From the IMG/VR virus record IMGVR_UViG_3300027791_000013, positions 1 to 64,000 of that record: DNA of 64,000 nucleotides; one strand, given 5' to 3'. This DNA comes from a virus. How positions within the stretch are numbered: position 1 is the stretch's first letter; every line of letters starts with the position of its first letter. Under the pieces are notes generated by a model that made no database searches, was not told the origin of the DNA, and was given only the letters and a program-made list of their open reading frames with translations. Of this stretch, positions 28,178 through 56,248 are shown one piece after another. The position numbers and the translations under genes were made by a program.

Positions 28178-30556
28178 ATGGCACGTACAATACAATCTCC
28201 CGGTGTAGAAATTAGAGAAATCGATCAATCTATTAGACCTGTGGTACCAGCAGGCACAAACGTTTTAATAACAGGTTTTGCCGATAAAGGGCCGACAGAT
28301 GAAGTTATTCAAGTAACTTCACGCAGCGAATTTGCTGATATCTACGGCGAACCAACGGTACCAGCAGAATTATATCTATCGAGTACAGCTCGAGCTTTAT
28401 TTAACAGTCCAGCAAATGTATTTGTTTACAGAATGCCATACGGTAAAGATAGAGGTGTTGGTTTTGGAAATAATTATAGTGTTTTAGCATACCCTGCATC
28501 TGCAGTTTCGGTAGGTGGTTCAGCCGCTACTTCGTTATCATCTTTTACTAATACTGGAGCAGCTAATAGTACACGTACAGTATTAATAGGTGAACCTGAT
28601 CACTTTACAATTGATCAAGATACATATTTTAGAATTCAGCAAAAAAATGGTTTTGACTGGGTAGATGAAACATCATCAAACTTTAATACTTTAGCAAGTC
28701 TTGGTAAAGCAGCATTCCTCGTTATCAATAAAGCTCAAACAACGATTGACCAATCTTTTCAAGGTTATTACTTCGGTGCTATTGATAATACAAATTTAAA
28801 TCCTGCTACAAATTTTGACGGTATTACAAATATTAAGACACTTAATGCAGCAGTAAGCGGTAATATTGGAAATTTAATAACAGAACCATTTATTAGCCTA
28901 CCATCAACAAGACTCGACAATCTACTTTCAGCAAGATCTGATAATAATGTCGATACATTTGGTGCAAGTGATAATAGTATATCTGAGCAAATGGAAAATC
29001 TAACTGATTATGATATTTCAACGAATCAATTTGATGATACATTATCGATTGGTTTATTCAGATTAGGAGTGACACCAAATACTAATAATACAATTAGATT
29101 AGCTTTAAATCTTGAAGAAACCGTAGTTGGTTCAACAGATTACCATAGACGTATTAATGACCCACAAGGTGGTGAGCCATTACCATTCAGGGTTGAAACT
29201 GATAACCAGTTACCTACGATGGATATTTTGGTTAATGATTTCTTGAGTAACAGAAATAAATCAACATATTTAAATGCAGATGGTATACCTAAGACAAAAA
29301 TTAGATTTGTAACTACTAAAACGAAAGATTTAAATAATAATTGGGCTACTTTATCTGCAGCATATGGTGCGACGAATAACGCATCATCTCTTAGTCTATC
29401 AGGAGTTGTTAATTCAATTCAAACGCAAGCCTTACCAGGTAATACTAATAGCTTATTTGCTCTAGGTTCATATGCAGATACAGATCTTTCTACTAAAGTA
29501 ATTGGTAATGTACCACAAAAATTAGATCGACTATTAGATACTGTTGAAAATACTGAGAGATTTGATATCGACATTACAGTTGATGGTGGTCTTTCAACAA
29601 TATATTCAGTATCACAATCATTGAGTAGTGATTCATTCGACGACACAGCAAGACTTTCAGCTATTGATGGTTTTAGAACAACCAGAACTGATAATACAGG
29701 TTTGTCGGAGAGTAGTACGTCATTTAGAGGTTATTGGAATGATGTTATAAGTAGATTTTCAACATTTGCTGAATTTAGAAGAAAAGATCATATTTTTATT
29801 GCTGATTTACCTAGATCAATATTTGTATCTGGTGAAAGTTTCTTAACTTTACAAGATGGTAATAAGAACTTCTCTAGAGATATACTTAATCCGATAAAAG
29901 CATTCGGCTCACAGGTTAATTCAAGTTATGCAGCTACTTACGGTCAATGGATACAAAGTAATGATACATTATATGGTGGATTGGCTTACTGCCCATCATC
30001 CGGATATCTTGCTTCAATCATGGCAAATACAGATGCTAATTTCGATCCATGGTTTGCACCAGCAGGCTTTACTAGAGGTAGATTAACAGGAGCAGCAGGT
30101 TTAGCATTGTTTCCAACACAGAAACAAAGAGATCAACTATATAAGATATCAGTTAATCCAATTCCATCGTTCCCAGTTGAAGGACCTGTTGTATTTGGTC
30201 AAAAGACATTGCAAAAATTACCAAGTGCATTTGATAGAATTAATGTTAGACGTCTATTCTTATATCTTGAAAAAGCTACAAAGAATACAGTTAGAAACTT
30301 TATATTTGAACCAAATACATTGCTAACGAGAACCCGAGTAGTTAATACATTAACACCTATTTTTGAAAATGTTAAAAACTCTGAAGGGTTGTTTGATTAT
30401 TTGATTATTTGCGATGAAAGAAATAATACACCAGATATTATTGATGCAAATGAATTAAGGGTTGATATATACTTGAAGCCAACAAGAGCTGCAGAGTTTA
30501 TACTAGTTAATTTTTACGCAACAAAGACAGGTACAGATTTTAACGAATTAGTTTAA
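28178..30556 (+). CDS. 18: tail sheath protein, gp18-like
   Basis: Contractile sheath subunit. N-terminus ARTIQSPGVEIREIDQS and VPAGTNVLITGFADKGP is diagnostic of gp18 sheath proteins. The C-terminal conserved domain contains FDPWFAPAGFTRG, LFPTQKQRDQLY, NPIPSFP, GQKTLQ, FDRINVRRLFLYLEK and the final RVDIYLKPTRAAEFILVNF. At 792 aa it is longer than T4 gp18 (659), with an enlarged variable central region (roughly 100-500), probably surface-exposed on the sheath. Confidence 0.95.
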   Translation: MARTIQSPGVEIREIDQSIRPVVPAGTNVLITGFADKGPTDEVIQVTSRSEFADIYGEPTVPAELYLSSTARALFNSPANVFVYRMPYGKDRGVGFGNNYSVLAYPASAVSVGGSAATSLSSFTNTGAANSTRTVLIGEPDHFTIDQDTYFRIQQKNGFDWVDETSSNFNTLASLGKAAFLVINKAQTTIDQSFQGYYFGAIDNTNLNPATNFDGITNIKTLNAAVSGNIGNLITEPFISLPSTRLDNLLSARSDNNVDTFGASDNSISEQMENLTDYDISTNQFDDTLSIGLFRLGVTPNTNNTIRLALNLEETVVGSTDYHRRINDPQGGEPLPFRVETDNQLPTMDILVNDFLSNRNKSTYLNADGIPKTKIRFVTTKTKDLNNNWATLSAAYGATNNASSLSLSGVVNSIQTQALPGNTNSLFALGSYADTDLSTKVIGNVPQKLDRLLDTVENTERFDIDITVDGGLSTIYSVSQSLSSDSFDDTARLSAIDGFRTTRTDNTGLSESSTSFRGYWNDVISRFSTFAEFRRKDHIFIADLPRSIFVSGESFLTLQDGNKNFSRDILNPIKAFGSQVNSSYAATYGQWIQSNDTLYGGLAYCPSSGYLASIMANTDANFDPWFAPAGFTRGRLTGAAGLALFPTQKQRDQLYKISVNPIPSFPVEGPVVFGQKTLQKLPSAFDRINVRRLFLYLEKATKNTVRNFIFEPNTLLTRTRVVNTLTPIFENVKNSEGLFDYLIICDERNNTPDIIDANELRVDIYLKPTRAAEFILVNFYATKTGTDFNELV

Positions 30557-43000: not shown

Positions 43001-43324
43001 ATGTCATGGTTGTTTACAGCAAGTAGTATTATTATTAATCTATCATCAGACGCAAGTTACGGTTCCCCAGATTTTTCTGGTAACAACCCTACTATTAATT
43101 TATCATTAAACGCGAATTACGATATAAATATACTACTTAATACGTTTAATACCGCTTTAAGAAACGGTATAACTGATCAAAGTGCAGTTATAGGGGTGTA
43201 TAACAACAACCCAGCATCTGGAGTTACTAGTAAAACATTAATGTGGACTCCAAAAATACCTGGTACATATTATTATGTAAATACTAATAACACATCAATT
43301 AATGGGCAAATTATAGTAAGCTAA
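43001..43324 (+). CDS. small tail protein with cupredoxin-like end, 107 aa
   Basis: A beta-rich protein with an N-terminal hydrophobic segment (WLFTASSIIINLS). Its C-terminal LMWTPKIPGTYYYVNTNNTSINGQIIVS follows the blue-copper pattern 'tPGtYxYxCxxHxxMxGxIxV' of cupredoxin-like domains in phage tail proteins. The Cys, His and Met copper ligands are replaced by Val, Asn and Ile, so it is probably a non-metal fold. It joins the protease gene by TAATG, suggesting that it binds or caps it. Confidence 0.65.
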   Translation: MSWLFTASSIIINLSSDASYGSPDFSGNNPTINLSLNANYDINILLNTFNTALRNGITDQSAVIGVYNNNPASGVTSKTLMWTPKIPGTYYYVNTNNTSINGQIIVS

Positions 43325-46224
43325 TGAATTATAAAGAATTAAAAGAAAAATTATCAAAGGTAGATCTACTATCAGCGTATCCGTTTATAAACAATTATGG
43401 TATATGTACTAAAACTAATAAAGAAACTGGTAAGGATGAGCTAGTAGTAGAATTTGGAGTAAGTGTAAAAATAAAATTTGATGAAATCAACGGTAAATAT
43501 ATGTTACCAAGGAGTTTATCTGCATACGGTATCGATATAAAAACCAAAATAAGTCAAGTAGAACAAGCTAGCATTAATTTTACTAGTGATAAGGATGAAG
43601 CTATAAAATATTATGAAAAGGTAGGTATAAATTTAGAACAAAGTTATGATTATATGCAATTGCAAACTGTTTATAATAATTATCAGGATGCTTTAGCTGA
43701 AAATAGCATGTTATCTGCAGAGATTAGCTATTCATTTAACCCATTAAGTCAACATGTTGACCCCATTAAAAGAAATAGGCAGAAAGCAAGACCTCTTTCA
43801 GGTGGCTGTTCATCAATATTTTACGGTAGTGGCAATTCATCCGACGCTACTTTTGGTTTATTTGTTAGAGATAAACAAGATAAAAGAATTGTAGCTTTAT
43901 CAAATAGCCACGTTTATTCAAGAAGTTTACTATTGGGTGAGGAAGCCCTCGCAAGTGGGCAAGCAAATAATATGCTAGTTTTATCAGCTCGACAACCAGG
44001 TAATGCTTCATATAACACTTATGGTAGTACTGACCCAGCAGTCGACCATATAGGTATTCCAAAAAGAACTAGCCGTCTTTCATTACAAGGTAGTAATAAA
44101 ATAGATGCATGTATACTTGAATTATCTAGTTATAATGATATAGATGCTACTTCTAATAATATTATATGGTTTAAACAACGTGGACCATATGAATTTGCTA
44201 CTACAGAAGAAATAGATTCATTAATAGATCCTGCTTCTATAAACTACCAATCTCCTGTTTTTAGAAGTGGTAGAACCCTTGGACCTTTAGGTTACCCGGG
44301 TAGTGATCATGAAAGCTTCAGTAGTACTAGACCATCGTCAAGTACTTCAATAATTTCTTTAAATGAAACATTAACGACAAATGAAGGGTTTAATACATTA
44401 ACTAACGGTGTAAGTTCTGTATATTTTAGTTCGTATGTGTCTATGTCAATACCTACTCAGGCTACTTTAATATATACAACAGCAGATGAAACAAGCGCAT
44501 TTATTGTTGGTTATAAAAATTATTATACTGGAAGTAATTCATTATTTTCTACTAGTTATAATGATTATTCGCCTGAATTAACTATAAATGACCCAGCTGG
44601 TATTAAAGACATATCTATTTACCATGCCTACTTTGGAAGTGCATACATTAATAAGTTAGGTAAAATTTATCATAATCGGCAGTTTTTATCCAACATCGTG
44701 AGGACCATGTTTAATTTGTACATTACACCTATTTCTGACAGGATACCATTTGCAAACCCCAATCCAACTATTTGGTCCCCTGTATCATCAAATAATGGTG
44801 ATATCTTTGCAAAACCCACTAAAAAATCTTGTTTTACTGGTCATGGTAGTTTTGCTTTAACTGAAGATAATGAACTATGGACACTAGGTGCGAATATTTG
44901 TGTAACAGCGAATGGGGATACTTATTATGGCGCACCAAGTGATACCCCATTTACCTCTAAGTCTAGTTTGAGATTTAGTGTTTGTGGCTTACCATATCAA
45001 GTAAATGATAGGGAAGAAATAAGACAATCGATACAAAAATTTACTAAAATTCCAGGGGAATGGATTGATTTTGGTTTTCATTTTTCCAGCTCTTCAGATA
45101 CGTTTCTTTACGCTATTTCAGCAAGCGGAGATTTATTTGCAGCGTATTTTAGCGTTGAGGCATCACAATATTATCATACGAATGACATGAGTCCGATGCT
45201 TTTTAATGGTTCTATACAAACCCCTCCACAATTAATTATATCGAGTGATAGTTGGTCACTTTCATGCTCACCGGACCTATCACACACTAAAATACCATTA
45301 ATAGTAGATGGTGAAAATATTAAAATTAAAAAAATATTTACCAATACTAGTAGTGATGGTGACTTAGGTTCTTCGGCGAAGGAACCATTACTCTTTCAAA
45401 CTGAAGACGATAAAATATTAGTTTTTTCAAAACCGACTACTAGCAGTTCTACTTATGCAACTGGGTATTTAAAATATGATGGTGATGATATTGTAGTAAC
45501 TGGAAAGACTGAAACTATTCATGGTCGTGGAACGTCGAACCAAACTATGACTATATTATCAGGTAATAACATATATAGTATTGGAGGGTCTAGTAGCACG
45601 CTGGCCGCGGCAGTGGACGAAGGGACTTGGATCAGTACACTGGGGGACGGTAAAGATTATGATATACAAACTTTATTACCATATACTAACTATTTTGATT
45701 TAAAAAAATGGGATAATATGCCACCTAATAACTGTAAAAATGCATGTGGTTCGATAGGGTACCTGGCATCGCTCCGAGGCAGCAATGCGAATAGTTCAAA
45801 TTTCGAAGGTGATTACGGTGCAACGATAATTTATACAGATGGTATTGGTCTATCTGGTATTGGTTATGGGCCAAGTGGTATTTTAGGTTTATATGATACC
45901 CCACAACGTGATGAGATTATTATGTCATCAGTTAATCGCTCTATTAACGTTAGCGGGTTTACAGCTAGCGGTGGGGCATTACTGGTTGCCGAATGTTTAG
46001 ATTTTAAAATGAAACATGAAAATGGAGCGGCCGCGGCTGGCGGTGATTCAGGTACAGCTGTATTTGCTTGTTTAAGTTCAACAATACCGACTCTAAGCAC
46101 ATTTAAACTTGTTGGTTTATTATTTGCAAGCCCGGCATCTACTTACCTATCACCTGGATATGGTGTAAGAATTGATAATATTCAAAATGAATTGGATATA
46201 GAACCGTGGGATGGAATTATTTAA
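43324..46224 (+). CDS. trypsin-like serine protease with RCC1-like insertion, 966 aa
   Basis: A PA-clan serine protease. Residues 20-85 resemble the N-terminal region of bacterial trypsin-like peptidases (VVEFGVSVKIKF...LPRSLSAYGIDIKTKI). Catalytic His196 lies in VALSNSHVY, Asp261 in KIDACILEL, and SGRTLGPLG at 315-323 matches a conserved protease segment. The nucleophile Ser909 is in GGDSGTAVF, followed by LVGLLFAS. Between Asp and Ser lie 648 residues, against ~80-100 usually. That stretch holds RCC1-like beta-propeller units (SFALTEDNELWTLGAN ~507-522, TFLYAISASGDLF ~593, LFQTEDDKILVF ~690, ILSGNNIYSIGG ~748). Probably a tail-borne protease acting on host surface or in fibre processing. 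It has TAATG coupling to the cupredoxin-like gene. Confidence 0.8.
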   Translation: MNYKELKEKLSKVDLLSAYPFINNYGICTKTNKETGKDELVVEFGVSVKIKFDEINGKYMLPRSLSAYGIDIKTKISQVEQASINFTSDKDEAIKYYEKVGINLEQSYDYMQLQTVYNNYQDALAENSMLSAEISYSFNPLSQHVDPIKRNRQKARPLSGGCSSIFYGSGNSSDATFGLFVRDKQDKRIVALSNSHVYSRSLLLGEEALASGQANNMLVLSARQPGNASYNTYGSTDPAVDHIGIPKRTSRLSLQGSNKIDACILELSSYNDIDATSNNIIWFKQRGPYEFATTEEIDSLIDPASINYQSPVFRSGRTLGPLGYPGSDHESFSSTRPSSSTSIISLNETLTTNEGFNTLTNGVSSVYFSSYVSMSIPTQATLIYTTADETSAFIVGYKNYYTGSNSLFSTSYNDYSPELTINDPAGIKDISIYHAYFGSAYINKLGKIYHNRQFLSNIVRTMFNLYITPISDRIPFANPNPTIWSPVSSNNGDIFAKPTKKSCFTGHGSFALTEDNELWTLGANICVTANGDTYYGAPSDTPFTSKSSLRFSVCGLPYQVNDREEIRQSIQKFTKIPGEWIDFGFHFSSSSDTFLYAISASGDLFAAYFSVEASQYYHTNDMSPMLFNGSIQTPPQLIISSDSWSLSCSPDLSHTKIPLIVDGENIKIKKIFTNTSSDGDLGSSAKEPLLFQTEDDKILVFSKPTTSSSTYATGYLKYDGDDIVVTGKTETIHGRGTSNQTMTILSGNNIYSIGGSSSTLAAAVDEGTWISTLGDGKDYDIQTLLPYTNYFDLKKWDNMPPNNCKNACGSIGYLASLRGSNANSSNFEGDYGATIIYTDGIGLSGIGYGPSGILGLYDTPQRDEIIMSSVNRSINVSGFTASGGALLVAECLDFKMKHENGAAAAGGDSGTAVFACLSSTIPTLSTFKLVGLLFASPASTYLSPGYGVRIDNIQNELDIEPWDGII

Positions 46225-46227
46225 AAA

Positions 46228-48606
46228 ATGAAAACAAAAACTAATATAATTAGTTTAGACAATCAAACGTCGAATGTATACAAAGTTACCCTTTCTGGTC
46301 GTGAATTTACTGCTGTAGGGGTTACAGATGACCATACTTATGCTAATGTACCATCTCCAGATGTCGGTGAACTAGTTGCTACCTATAATATATCTGTTGC
46401 ATCATCTGTAAATGAAGGTCAATCGTTACCGGTGACTGTGACGACGGCAAATGTTGCAGATTATACATTATTAAGTTGGGCAGTTACAAATACAGGAAAC
46501 GGTGATTTTGTAGCTGAATCAGGGGTTTTCTTTATTAACAGTGATACTGGTAGTTTTTCAATAACCCCAGTATTAGACTTTACTACAGAAGGACCGGAGA
46601 CTTTTATCATAACTATTAAAAGTTTTGAAGCCGGTTACCCGGTAGTTGCAACATCACCATCTATAACTATAAATGATACTAGTATCACACCTGAAACACC
46701 ATTACCTACTTATAGCATAGTTGCAGCTGCCAGTAATGTTGATGAAGGTAGCAATTTACCGATTAACGTTACTACGGCAAATGTTGCAAATGGTACAACT
46801 TTATATTGGTCATTCGGAGTGATTCAATCACCTATCAATGACCAAGATTTTGATGTTTCTGCCGGTTCAGTAACTATCAACAATAATTCAGCTAGTTTTA
46901 ATATAATTCCAAATTTTGATCAATTAACTGAGGGTGTTGAAACGTTATTCGTTTTACTAAGATTGGATAATTCAACTAATGGTTCGGTGGTTGCAAATAC
47001 GGGGTTAATTCTTGTTAATGACACTAGTCTTACTCCTGCTCCGGAGGATGGGACACCAGAACCAGAAGAACTTGATGTACCAGCTCCTACCCCTAGGGGC
47101 GCACTAAAACAAGTACCCGTTGATTCCTCATCAGACGATACAATTCAAACTAGTACTATAATTGATATATTTGCAAATTTTGATACTACTGCAGTGACTG
47201 ACCCTGAAAGAGAATATTATAACTTACCAAGAAATGAATTACCTGTGTTAAATCAGGTTACTGCTAGTACAAGAGTTATAATTACAGAAAATCCACCGGT
47301 AGATAAGTTAGTATTTTCTACCACTGGTATCGACGGTTATGGTTATAATGACCCTACTTTTAATTTCGATTCTAATTATTTTCAGAATCAAATTATATAT
47401 TTTACCGTTAGAGTTAAAACTTTAAACAATTACCCAGCAAAATATCTTAATAATTTAGTTCTTGGTAATGGTTCTCAAAATAATACAATATCTATAGATT
47501 TGCTCGATGAAAATAATAATTCTTTGAATGCTACTATATCTAGTGATTTTGGAATATTATCAGCTGATATAAATGGTGGTTTCTTTAAAGGAGCATTTCA
47601 ATATAATGGGCAAAGTAATAACATTAAATTAAGAGCAAAAGCGACTACAAACAATGTACCGTTAGTTGGTGATAGTAACACGTTTAATATTGTACCGGTA
47701 AGTGGTAGTAAAGAATTTCGTAAGGTAAATGAAGATAATAATCAAAAAGATAATTTTATAAGCTATTTATACCAACCTAATTTAAGGGATAATCCTAAAT
47801 TCTTTACTGATATAATAGGTCAAATCGTAGGAGATGATAAAGACCCAAATACATTAGGTGTAAAAGTTTATGAAAAAATATCTAACTTTTTATTAAATTC
47901 TAATGATATAGATTATGCTAATATTGATAATTTAATTAGTAGTATGAAATTAATTGATAGTAATGTTAATAAATTTTCTGAAAACTATCCAGCTAGTTTA
48001 AAACGTATTGTAGATTTTTTCAGCGTTAATAGATCCAAAATATTACCTATAAAAAATAAATTTAATCAAGATTTTGATAATAAAGGCCGGCCTAGCTCTG
48101 GTTTAGGTAAAAATTTAGGTAGCGAAATAAAAATTTCTGATACATTATCAGGTGGTGATAATTTTAAACCTATAGTAGCATATGAAAAATTCAGTCAAAG
48201 ATATTATATGTTAAATACTGATCCAACTAGTGGTTATGATTTTAGATATCTAGGTAGTAATCGTACTTTTGAAATATCTTCCTACAATATAGATTGGGGA
48301 TGGAGTTTAGTTCTACCAGATGGTGTAGGAGATTTTACATATATGCTAGATATTAGTGGTAATAATTTGGTTTTAGAAAATAATTTTAGAATTCTAAATG
48401 AAGATAGGGGTTTAGAAACGAGCCAAATATCGAAATATTATACTTTCTTTCAGTATATATCAACAGTTAATAATAGTAATATATTTGCATTTTATGACGA
48501 TGCAAACTTAAATTCAAATAGTGATATATCATCTTTAAGTGCTATAAACAATAGTATTGATGAAATTATATTAAAAGATATATATTCTGGTACAAATTTA
48601 ATTTAA
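46228..48606 (+). CDS. tail/adhesin protein with two Calx-beta domains, 792 aa
   Basis: Two tandem Calx-beta-type domains: YNISVASSVNEGQSLPVTV...GDFVAESGVF...DFTTEGPETFIITI (about 52-150), and YSIVAAASNVDEGSNLPINV...FDQLTEGVETLFVLL (about 163-260). Their DNA still shares ACGGCAAATGTTGCA, showing an internal duplication. A Pro/Glu-rich linker (~270-295) follows, then large beta and helical regions. Calx-beta domains bind Ca2+ and mediate adhesion. It begins 4 nt after the protease stop. Function: a likely tail fibre or host-binding protein; no catalytic motif is seen. Confidence 0.75.
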   Translation: MKTKTNIISLDNQTSNVYKVTLSGREFTAVGVTDDHTYANVPSPDVGELVATYNISVASSVNEGQSLPVTVTTANVADYTLLSWAVTNTGNGDFVAESGVFFINSDTGSFSITPVLDFTTEGPETFIITIKSFEAGYPVVATSPSITINDTSITPETPLPTYSIVAAASNVDEGSNLPINVTTANVANGTTLYWSFGVIQSPINDQDFDVSAGSVTINNNSASFNIIPNFDQLTEGVETLFVLLRLDNSTNGSVVANTGLILVNDTSLTPAPEDGTPEPEELDVPAPTPRGALKQVPVDSSSDDTIQTSTIIDIFANFDTTAVTDPEREYYNLPRNELPVLNQVTASTRVIITENPPVDKLVFSTTGIDGYGYNDPTFNFDSNYFQNQIIYFTVRVKTLNNYPAKYLNNLVLGNGSQNNTISIDLLDENNNSLNATISSDFGILSADINGGFFKGAFQYNGQSNNIKLRAKATTNNVPLVGDSNTFNIVPVSGSKEFRKVNEDNNQKDNFISYLYQPNLRDNPKFFTDIIGQIVGDDKDPNTLGVKVYEKISNFLLNSNDIDYANIDNLISSMKLIDSNVNKFSENYPASLKRIVDFFSVNRSKILPIKNKFNQDFDNKGRPSSGLGKNLGSEIKISDTLSGGDNFKPIVAYEKFSQRYYMLNTDPTSGYDFRYLGSNRTFEISSYNIDWGWSLVLPDGVGDFTYMLDISGNNLVLENNFRILNEDRGLETSQISKYYTFFQYISTVNNSNIFAFYDDANLNSNSDISSLSAINNSIDEIILKDIYSGTNLI

Positions 48607-54659: not shown

Positions 54660-55502
54660 ATGAGTACCAATATAACAGGTTTAGCCGGTGAAATAATAGC
54701 TTTCACATACCCTTCAATTATAAAAATAGCTGATAATGGTAACATGCCAGCAGTCTGTGGTGGCAATAGAAATGCTGCTGCAGTTTTTCAGAACAGTAAT
54801 CGAAGCGGACAACCTAATGCATTATCAGTATTATCAGATGGTAGTGGTATTGTTGGTTCGTTAGCAATGGGGCAGCAAGGGTCTGGAGCCAAAGTGTTTG
54901 GACCTTTAATTGTAGATGGTGGTACGAATAGTGTAGTTGCAAAAGTAGTAGATATTAAAAATGGTGGTATAACAGTAGCAAACCAAATTACTGTAGCCGG
55001 TAGTGGTGCGAATAATATCAGCGGTACTACAAATTTAAATGTATTAAACGTTGCTACCACGTCGACCCTAATTGGAGCTGTTTGTGTTTGTAGTACTTTA
55101 GGGGTTACCGGTACAGCTACTGTAAATGGATGTACAACATTGAACGGCGGTTTAAATGTTACATCTGGTGGTTTATCAGTAACTGGAGCGATAAATGCTA
55201 CAAATGATATTACAGCTTTTTCTACTTCAGATAGTAGATTAAAAAATAACATTATTAAGATTAATGATTCAAATAAAATTATTAATAGCTTAAATGGTTA
55301 TAAGTATGAATGGAATGAAAAAGCTAACCAATCAGGAGAAGGCATTGGTGTTATAGCTCAAGAAGTTAAAGAACTTATACCTTCGGCTGTCAGAGAAAAT
55401 GATGAAGGTTATCTATCAGTAGATTATATAAAAATTATACCATACTTAATCGAAGAGGTAAAAAATTTAAACAATAGAATTAAAATATTAGAGGAGAAAT
55501 AA
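54660..55502 (+). CDS. tail fibre with S74 intramolecular chaperone domain, 280 aa
   Basis: A trimeric beta-helical shaft (Gly/Thr/Val/Asn-rich, with Cys such as GAVCVCSTL and NGCTTLNGG) ends in a Peptidase_S74 domain. STSDSRLKNNI contains the auto-cleavage Ser and RLK motif, GIGVIAQEVKELIPSAV is the conserved second block, and a C-terminal coil (LIEEVKNLNNRIKILEE) trimerises it. The chaperone cleaves itself off after folding. It joins the next gene, a paralog, by TAATG; both share a 63-bp identical segment. The shaft part likely determines receptor specificity. Confidence 0.85.
   Translation: MSTNITGLAGEIIAFTYPSIIKIADNGNMPAVCGGNRNAAAVFQNSNRSGQPNALSVLSDGSGIVGSLAMGQQGSGAKVFGPLIVDGGTNSVVAKVVDIKNGGITVANQITVAGSGANNISGTTNLNVLNVATTSTLIGAVCVCSTLGVTGTATVNGCTTLNGGLNVTSGGLSVTGAINATNDITAFSTSDSRLKNNIIKINDSNKIINSLNGYKYEWNEKANQSGEGIGVIAQEVKELIPSAVRENDEGYLSVDYIKIIPYLIEEVKNLNNRIKILEEK
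55182..55244 (+). repeat. 63-bp identical repeat at shaft/chaperone junction, copy 1
   Basis: Identical to 55922-55984. It encodes TGAINATNDITAFSTSDSRL at the start of the S74 chaperone domain. The flanks diverge on both sides. Confidence 0.9.
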
Positions 55503-56248
55503 TGGCAACTTTACAAGGAAGAAATATAAACGATACATATAAAGGTTTAATAAAAACCTTTTCTAACGGGCAACTAACATCATCTAATCTAATTACTGAT
55601 GGTTCAGGTAATTTTACAGCTTTAACCTTAGGTAGTGCAGGTAATAGTTCTTCTTTTGATAATTCATTAGTAGTTAATACTACTATACTTGCCTGTAATA
55701 ATCTCACTACTAATAGTAATCTTTGCGTTAAGGGTTCAGGTACATTTGATAATAATATTATTGTAACGGGTAATACACTAATAACCGGTAATTTAACTGC
55801 ATCAAGCTTTAATTTTAACGGTGCAGGTACATTTAACGGTGGAATAACGTTTAATAATACAATAGGAGTTTGCGGGGTAACAAACCTAAAAGCTACAAAT
55901 ATTGTTGGTGATTTAAATGTTACTGGAGCGATAAATGCTACAAATGATATTACAGCTTTTTCTACTTCAGATAGTAGATTAAAAGAAAATTTAATTCCTA
56001 TTGATTCAGAAAGTTTTGTAAGTAACTTAACTGGTTATGAATTTAATTGGAATAGTAAGTCTAAAAGAACTGGTAAAGGTAAAGGAATTATAGCTCAAGA
56101 CTTGTATAATATTGATACAAGTTTAGTTAAAGAAAATAGCGATGGATATCTTACAGTAGATTATACGAGTCTAATTCCAGTGCTAATTGAAGAAGTTAAA
56201 AGGTTAGGTAAAGAAATTGAAGCCTTAAAAAACTTACAGCATCATTGA
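55502..56248 (+). CDS. tail fibre with S74 intramolecular chaperone domain, 248 aa (paralog)
   Basis: Paralog of the previous gene. The shaft is a different Gly/Asn/Thr-rich beta repeat (TLITGNLTASSFNFNGAGTF); the end is a second S74 domain with STSDSRLKENL, GKGIIAQDLYNIDTSLV, DGYLTVDYTSLIPVLIEE and a C-terminal coil (VKRLGKEIEALKNL). The start has SD-like GAGGAG in the upstream coding end and TAATG coupling. Its stop overlaps the antisense PKD gene by 7 nt. Confidence 0.85.
   Translation: MATLQGRNINDTYKGLIKTFSNGQLTSSNLITDGSGNFTALTLGSAGNSSSFDNSLVVNTTILACNNLTTNSNLCVKGSGTFDNNIIVTGNTLITGNLTASSFNFNGAGTFNGGITFNNTIGVCGVTNLKATNIVGDLNVTGAINATNDITAFSTSDSRLKENLIPIDSESFVSNLTGYEFNWNSKSKRTGKGKGIIAQDLYNIDTSLVKENSDGYLTVDYTSLIPVLIEEVKRLGKEIEALKNLQHH
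55922..55984 (+). repeat. 63-bp identical repeat at shaft/chaperone junction, copy 2
   Basis: Identical to 55182-55244. The match starts just before the S74 domain, at the boundary of the shaft and chaperone. Confidence 0.9.

Follow-up and report, generated by a model that had tools for sequence, protein, structure and literature searches.

In the prolyl oligopeptidase family (S9), a propeller interrupts the peptidase and gates entry to its active site, and trypsin-fold enzymes tolerate insertions in their loops. Trypsin-like domains and propellers also meet in UmbA of the Streptomyces umbrella toxins, where a trypsin-like domain is joined to variable propeller lectins (PMC11062931) and binds, in its cleft, the N-terminal strand of UmbB (PMC11062931, PMC13274773). 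Here we analyse a phage gene whose product appears to be a NAL1-like serine protease interrupted between its catalytic Asp and Ser by an RCC1-like insert. A propeller-sized domain nested between these two residues has no described case in the databases and literature that we searched. Open-licence papers on RCC1, propellers, trypsin-like proteins and phages held no description of the layout; this absence is weak evidence and agrees, as do the phage and IMG/VR searches, with an earlier sequence-only reading of the gene, which knew of no phage protein built this way.

The gene lies in a 64,000-nucleotide stretch of a 71,515-base IMG/VR virus record; we call this whole stretch the window. The C-terminal part of the 792-aa tail sheath encoded there is 37–41% identical to gp18 of Pelagibacter phage Mosig and of cyanophages. 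Only the last ~300 residues of this sheath (window 28178–30556) match other sheaths; the ~490 residues before them have no match. Downstream, two short proteins (280 and 248 aa; window 54660–56248) both have an S74 intramolecular chaperone domain close to their C-terminus. Together with clamp-loader-like and dUTPase-like genes in the tail region, the gp18-like sheath and the S74 proteins identify the phage as a T4-like myovirus, not close to any named phage and probably marine. The protease locus is flanked by baseplate-region genes on one side and by S74-chaperone fibre genes on the other (Table 1).

Table 1. Features of the protease locus, in window positions.
Feature	Position	Strand	Size or support
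107-aa gene, inherited together with the protease	43001..43324	+	stop codon overlaps protease start
Protease open reading frame	43324-46224	+	966 aa
NAL1-like N-terminal pre-domain, residues 1-150	43324..43773	+	hhalign against the bacterial family
Trypsin-fold first half, residues 151-334 (RPLSGG, His196, Asp261, SGRT 315-318)	43774..44325	+	64-67% identity to complete relatives
Putative catalytic His196 codon	43909..43911	+	
Putative catalytic Asp261 codon	44104..44106	+	
RCC1-like insert, residues 336-862, in the hairpin after SGRT	44329..45909	+	22-24% identity to L009
Only individually significant RCC1 unit, ALTEDNELWTLGAN, residues 511-524	44854..44895	+	
Trypsin-fold second half, residues 863-966 and stop: GGDSG (Ser909), VGLLFAS, C-terminal IDNIQNELDIEPWDGII	45910..46224	+	hhalign of this half alone
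Putative nucleophile Ser909 codon	46048..46050	+	
311-aa N-terminal extension of the next tail protein	46228..47160	+	found only where the protease is
Body of the next tail protein, residues 312-792, conserved	47161..48606	+	present with or without the module

The sequence-only reading had given the open reading frame, His196, Asp261 and the GDSG serine, Ser909, with correct coordinates, frame and residue numbers. His196 stands in the motif LSNSHV, Asp261 in KIDACIL and Ser909 in GGDSG, with SGRT at 315; the pre-domain motifs are YPFINxYGIxTKTNKET..ELVVEFxVSxKI..LPxSLSAxGIDIKT. Residue 903, six before Ser909, is Ala, and the S1 pocket would therefore be without the Asp of trypsin. The start codon overlaps the stop codon of the 107-aa gene just before it (TAATG at 43322–43326), which makes translational coupling of the two genes probable.

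Assigning the protein to a family required an indirect route. No part of it matched Pfam, NCBIfam or PHROGs (no Pfam model at threshold), and direct PDB sequence searches returned nothing significant. Because no Pfam or NCBIfam model matched, a reference family was gathered by tblastn, the query being a consensus-style sequence composed from general knowledge, and eight members were aligned; this eight-member profile was too diverse for the collection scan, for which a three-member profile was used. The resulting bacterial and phage family, a pre-domain followed by a trypsin domain, matches Pfam NAL1_N (PF25608), Nal1_C (PF25819) and Trypsin_2 (PF13365). Its PDB matches are NARROW LEAF 1 (2.3e-16, pre-domain included), streptogrisins and alpha-lytic protease, with support from single sequences as well.

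Both flanks of the insert align with this family in hhalign, whose E-values here are those of single comparisons and not of database searches. The full-length phage profile aligned over the pre-domain, His, Asp and SGRT (E 1.3e-11), bearing out the earlier match of the pre-domain and SGRT segment to bacterial trypsin-like peptidases. The C-terminal half alone aligned exactly at GDSG and VGLLFA (E 1.2e-5), the two flanks joined aligned throughout (E 6e-14), and the insert did not align (E 0.74). These comparisons support reading the flanks as a NAL1-like trypsin-fold (PA clan) serine protease of the bacterial pre-domain type, and they uphold the earlier suggestion that this protease is interrupted between Asp and Ser, by what would be an RCC1-like insert.

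The independent match of the C-terminal half also bears on whether the protein is one folded protease at all, or whether its GDSG belongs to an unrelated fold or to an accidental fusion of separate proteins. Such a reading could appeal to the missing Pfam, NCBIfam and PHROG matches and to the want of a confident structure: full-length AlphaFold on a 5-row alignment gave a pLDDT of 32, and the triad is not assembled in this low-confidence model. We nonetheless consider it very improbable, given the alignments of the C-terminal half and of the joined halves and a layout kept in three complete lineages; that conservation is why accidental fusion was dropped.

The point of interruption can be placed closely. 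GRT and GDSG are separated by 42–52 residues in 15 uninterrupted relatives and by 591 in the window protein, so ~540 extra residues would lie in the hairpin after SGRT. The large insertion proposed earlier is thus real, and its size comes down from ~600 residues to ~540. In the alignment of the joined flanks, the phage sequence departs from the family right after GRTLGP and rejoins it at the next strand (TDEIIMSSVNRSINV against TEGQIVQMDATIEV). We take this hairpin to correspond to the autolysis loop of chymotrypsin, on the rim of the active site.

What fills the hairpin resembles RCC1 proteins most clearly in a single unit. The sequence-only reading had described a series of RCC1-type units of the form ALxEDxxLWxLGxN. 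One of them, ALTEDNELWTLGAN, matched an RCC1 unit profile at E ~3e-5, against a best null of 0.033 from 65 slices of an unrelated tail protein, and its region aligned with phage RCC1 proteins at 1.8e-5 in hhalign. For the rest the description does not hold: the consensus is clear only once, at 511, and the other units are degenerate, with units 2 and 7 marginal (0.016 and 0.010) and the remainder not significant. AlphaFold of the insert alone (4 rows) reached a pLDDT of 36; with this model as query, the top-ranking Foldseek matches were RCC1 proteins, both in the PDB (1i2m, 7.8e-6) and among viral structures, at a TM of ~0.2–0.3. Seven hairpins can be read by eye, at 379, 436, 507, 593, 687, 741 and 830, and a seven-bladed propeller is a plausible model. 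When the seven candidate blades were compared with each other, a weak collective signal emerged (best 0.042), and slices of unrelated protein reached lower (0.0085); the null was partly contaminated by overlapping slices, and the comparison was not relied on. Set beside RCC1-like propellers, phage RCC1 proteins included, the insert thus offers one significantly aligning unit, together with a predicted strand pattern and Foldseek matches that fit RCC1-type blades. It differs from them in that its units are long and degenerate, give no match to the Pfam RCC1 models and are nested inside a protease.

Neither a set of 50,697 phage records nor two scans of GTDB genomes yielded a relative of the protease. 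IMG/VR yielded the partial homologues L001 and L002 and, reached through a neighbouring gene, the complete homologues L009 (1100 aa, 37% identical) and L007 (996 aa, 46%); the IMG/VR loci make up three lineages in addition to the window. All three complete proteins (window, L009 and L007) keep His, Asp, SGRTLGPLG and GDSG unchanged, down to 37% identity, and GDSG is also present in L001. An invariant triad argues for an active protease.

The insert follows a different course from the catalytic residues. Between the window and L009, identity is 44% in the pre-domain, 66% in the first protease half, 24% and 22% in the two halves of the insert and 46% in the second protease half; between the window and L007, the corresponding values are 55, 67, 36 and 35, and 55%. 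Since the other proteins shared by the window and L009 are 58–96% identical, most of them at least 70%, the insert, at 22–24%, diverges far more than any other part of the locus. A variable insert on the rim of an active site points to recognition of a ligand that changes, in the simplest case one on the host surface.

Three further viral proteins with NAL1-like or related protease domains showed other arrangements. A phage protein at least 1615 aa long (L054:3983-8827, IMG/VR 3300033144_006256) begins with an uninterrupted NAL1-like trypsin domain, followed by beta-rich repeats and, by eye, propeller-like repeats of the IYKHSGFS type, the parts being joined end to end. In an annotated serine protease of Aeropyrum coil-shaped virus (L032:1180-2157), the VGLLFAGS strand, which normally comes after GDSG, precedes GRT and GDSG, possibly reflecting a rearranged second barrel. 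A viral NAL1-like protease at L055:3935-4780 has the first half, then an unrelated hydrophobic C-terminus, and no GDSG.

The protease gene belongs to an all-or-none block. Four module-free loci (L014, L015, L016 and L018) lack both the 107-aa gene and the protease, and with them residues 1–311 of the next tail protein; homology to that tail protein restarts exactly at residue 312. L012 (module present) and L015 (module absent) are 98.5% identical over 7.6 kb upstream, up to the boundary, so gain or loss of the module appears recent. From 6797 on, L015 and L016 share 99.9% identity over 6.3 kb, against only ~81% upstream. As these two pairs are near-identical on opposite sides, recombination at the locus is, to judge from the sequences, frequent. 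Joint inheritance of adjacent genes can reflect a single indel and does not imply physical interaction. The block is best read as an exchangeable tail module of a T4-like phage.

Both partners of the protease in the block have conserved parts. The 107-aa protein is 73–83% conserved, more than the adjoining protease; its C-terminus (TLMWTPKxxGTYYYVNTxNTSxNGQIIVS) looks by eye like the cupredoxin-like domains of marine phage proteins, and it had no significant PDB sequence match. The extension of the next tail protein opens with a 45-aa head that is conserved (80, 73 and 58% identity), continues with two Calx-beta-like repeats recognised by eye and ends in a variable Pro-rich linker; the body that follows is 72–89% identical.

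Location in a tail cluster could be fortuitous. An intact triad and the lack of an obvious virion-targeting signal would suit an intracellular or assembly protease that processes tail or head proteins or cleaves host proteins, with a propeller that recognises an internal substrate. Clamp-loader-like and dUTPase-like genes, named from their own sequence, occur among the tail-region genes, and the cluster is to that extent not purely structural. We judge this explanation improbable, however: part of the block is an in-frame extension of a tail-cluster protein, close relatives do without the block, and the divergence of the insert is far above the usual need of an internal substrate.

We tentatively favour a tail-module NAL1-like protease with a propeller at the rim of its active site, where the propeller would bind a host-surface ligand and guide or gate cleavage. 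For this reading we infer a complete propeller, a location in the virion, a route of attachment, catalysis, ligand binding and gating. The His-Asp-Ser set would be intact in a trypsin-fold enzyme whose second barrel carries the RCC1-like propeller on the hairpin after the SGRT strand, at the autolysis-loop rim. The conserved protease and pre-domain would anchor the protein on the tail; its most likely mounts are the next tail protein, by way of the N-terminal head and Calx-beta-like stalk, the 107-aa protein, or both. The fast-evolving propeller would bind a ligand on the host surface and either position it for cleavage or gate the active site; this last step is proposed by analogy with propeller-interrupted peptidases of another fold.

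The same conserved head suits the main rival, in which the trypsin fold is an adaptor only: its cleft would grip a partner peptide, perhaps this head, and so mount a receptor-binding propeller, with catalysis not needed. UmbA is a precedent, since it pairs a trypsin-like domain with a variable propeller and binds a partner strand in the cleft (PMC11062931; PMC13274773), and at the phage locus a conserved head peptide is likewise inherited with a trypsin-like protein whose presumed propeller is the variable part. We hold a docking role of this kind to be unlikely, because the phage His, Asp and Ser are invariant, whereas the S. coelicolor UmbA proteins are without a complete triad, and because the UmbA lectin is appended, whereas the phage propeller would be inserted.

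On the favoured reading of a tail protease with a gating or guiding propeller, the phage tail may recognise and cut host-surface molecules by means of a split protease. The split itself appears well supported by sequence; its function, as proposed here, is a reasoned hypothesis. If the enzyme is active, it would be an example of a phage tail in which receptor recognition is tied to proteolysis at the surface, and also a second case, unrelated to the first, of a peptidase gated by a propeller. With its all-or-none block and hypervariable insert, the locus stands out as one that recombines and probably serves host interaction in an uncultured group of T4-like phages.

Measured against described systems, the architecture would be a propeller-interrupted form of the known NAL1-like protease family, a combination not described in the databases and papers searched. 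With the NAL1-like proteases of bacteria, archaea and phages it shares, in the same order, the pre-domain, the LSNxHV His, the NxxDaaI Asp, SGRT, GDSG and VGLLFAG, and it departs from them in its greatly lengthened GRT–GDSG spacing. UmbA resembles the phage protein in combining a trypsin-like domain with a variable beta-propeller and, as the phage protein would, rides on a large particle; it differs in its C-terminal lectin, where the phage insert falls between Asp and Ser, in its incomplete triad and in the particle itself (PMC11062931). Prolyl oligopeptidase has an alpha/beta-hydrolase catalytic fold, in contrast to the trypsin fold here, and we claim no homology between them. With more reserve than for the mechanism above, we suggest that a tail protease may have had a rim loop replaced by a whole receptor-binding propeller, mechanically coupling recognition to proteolysis, as a separately evolved counterpart of the prolyl oligopeptidases.
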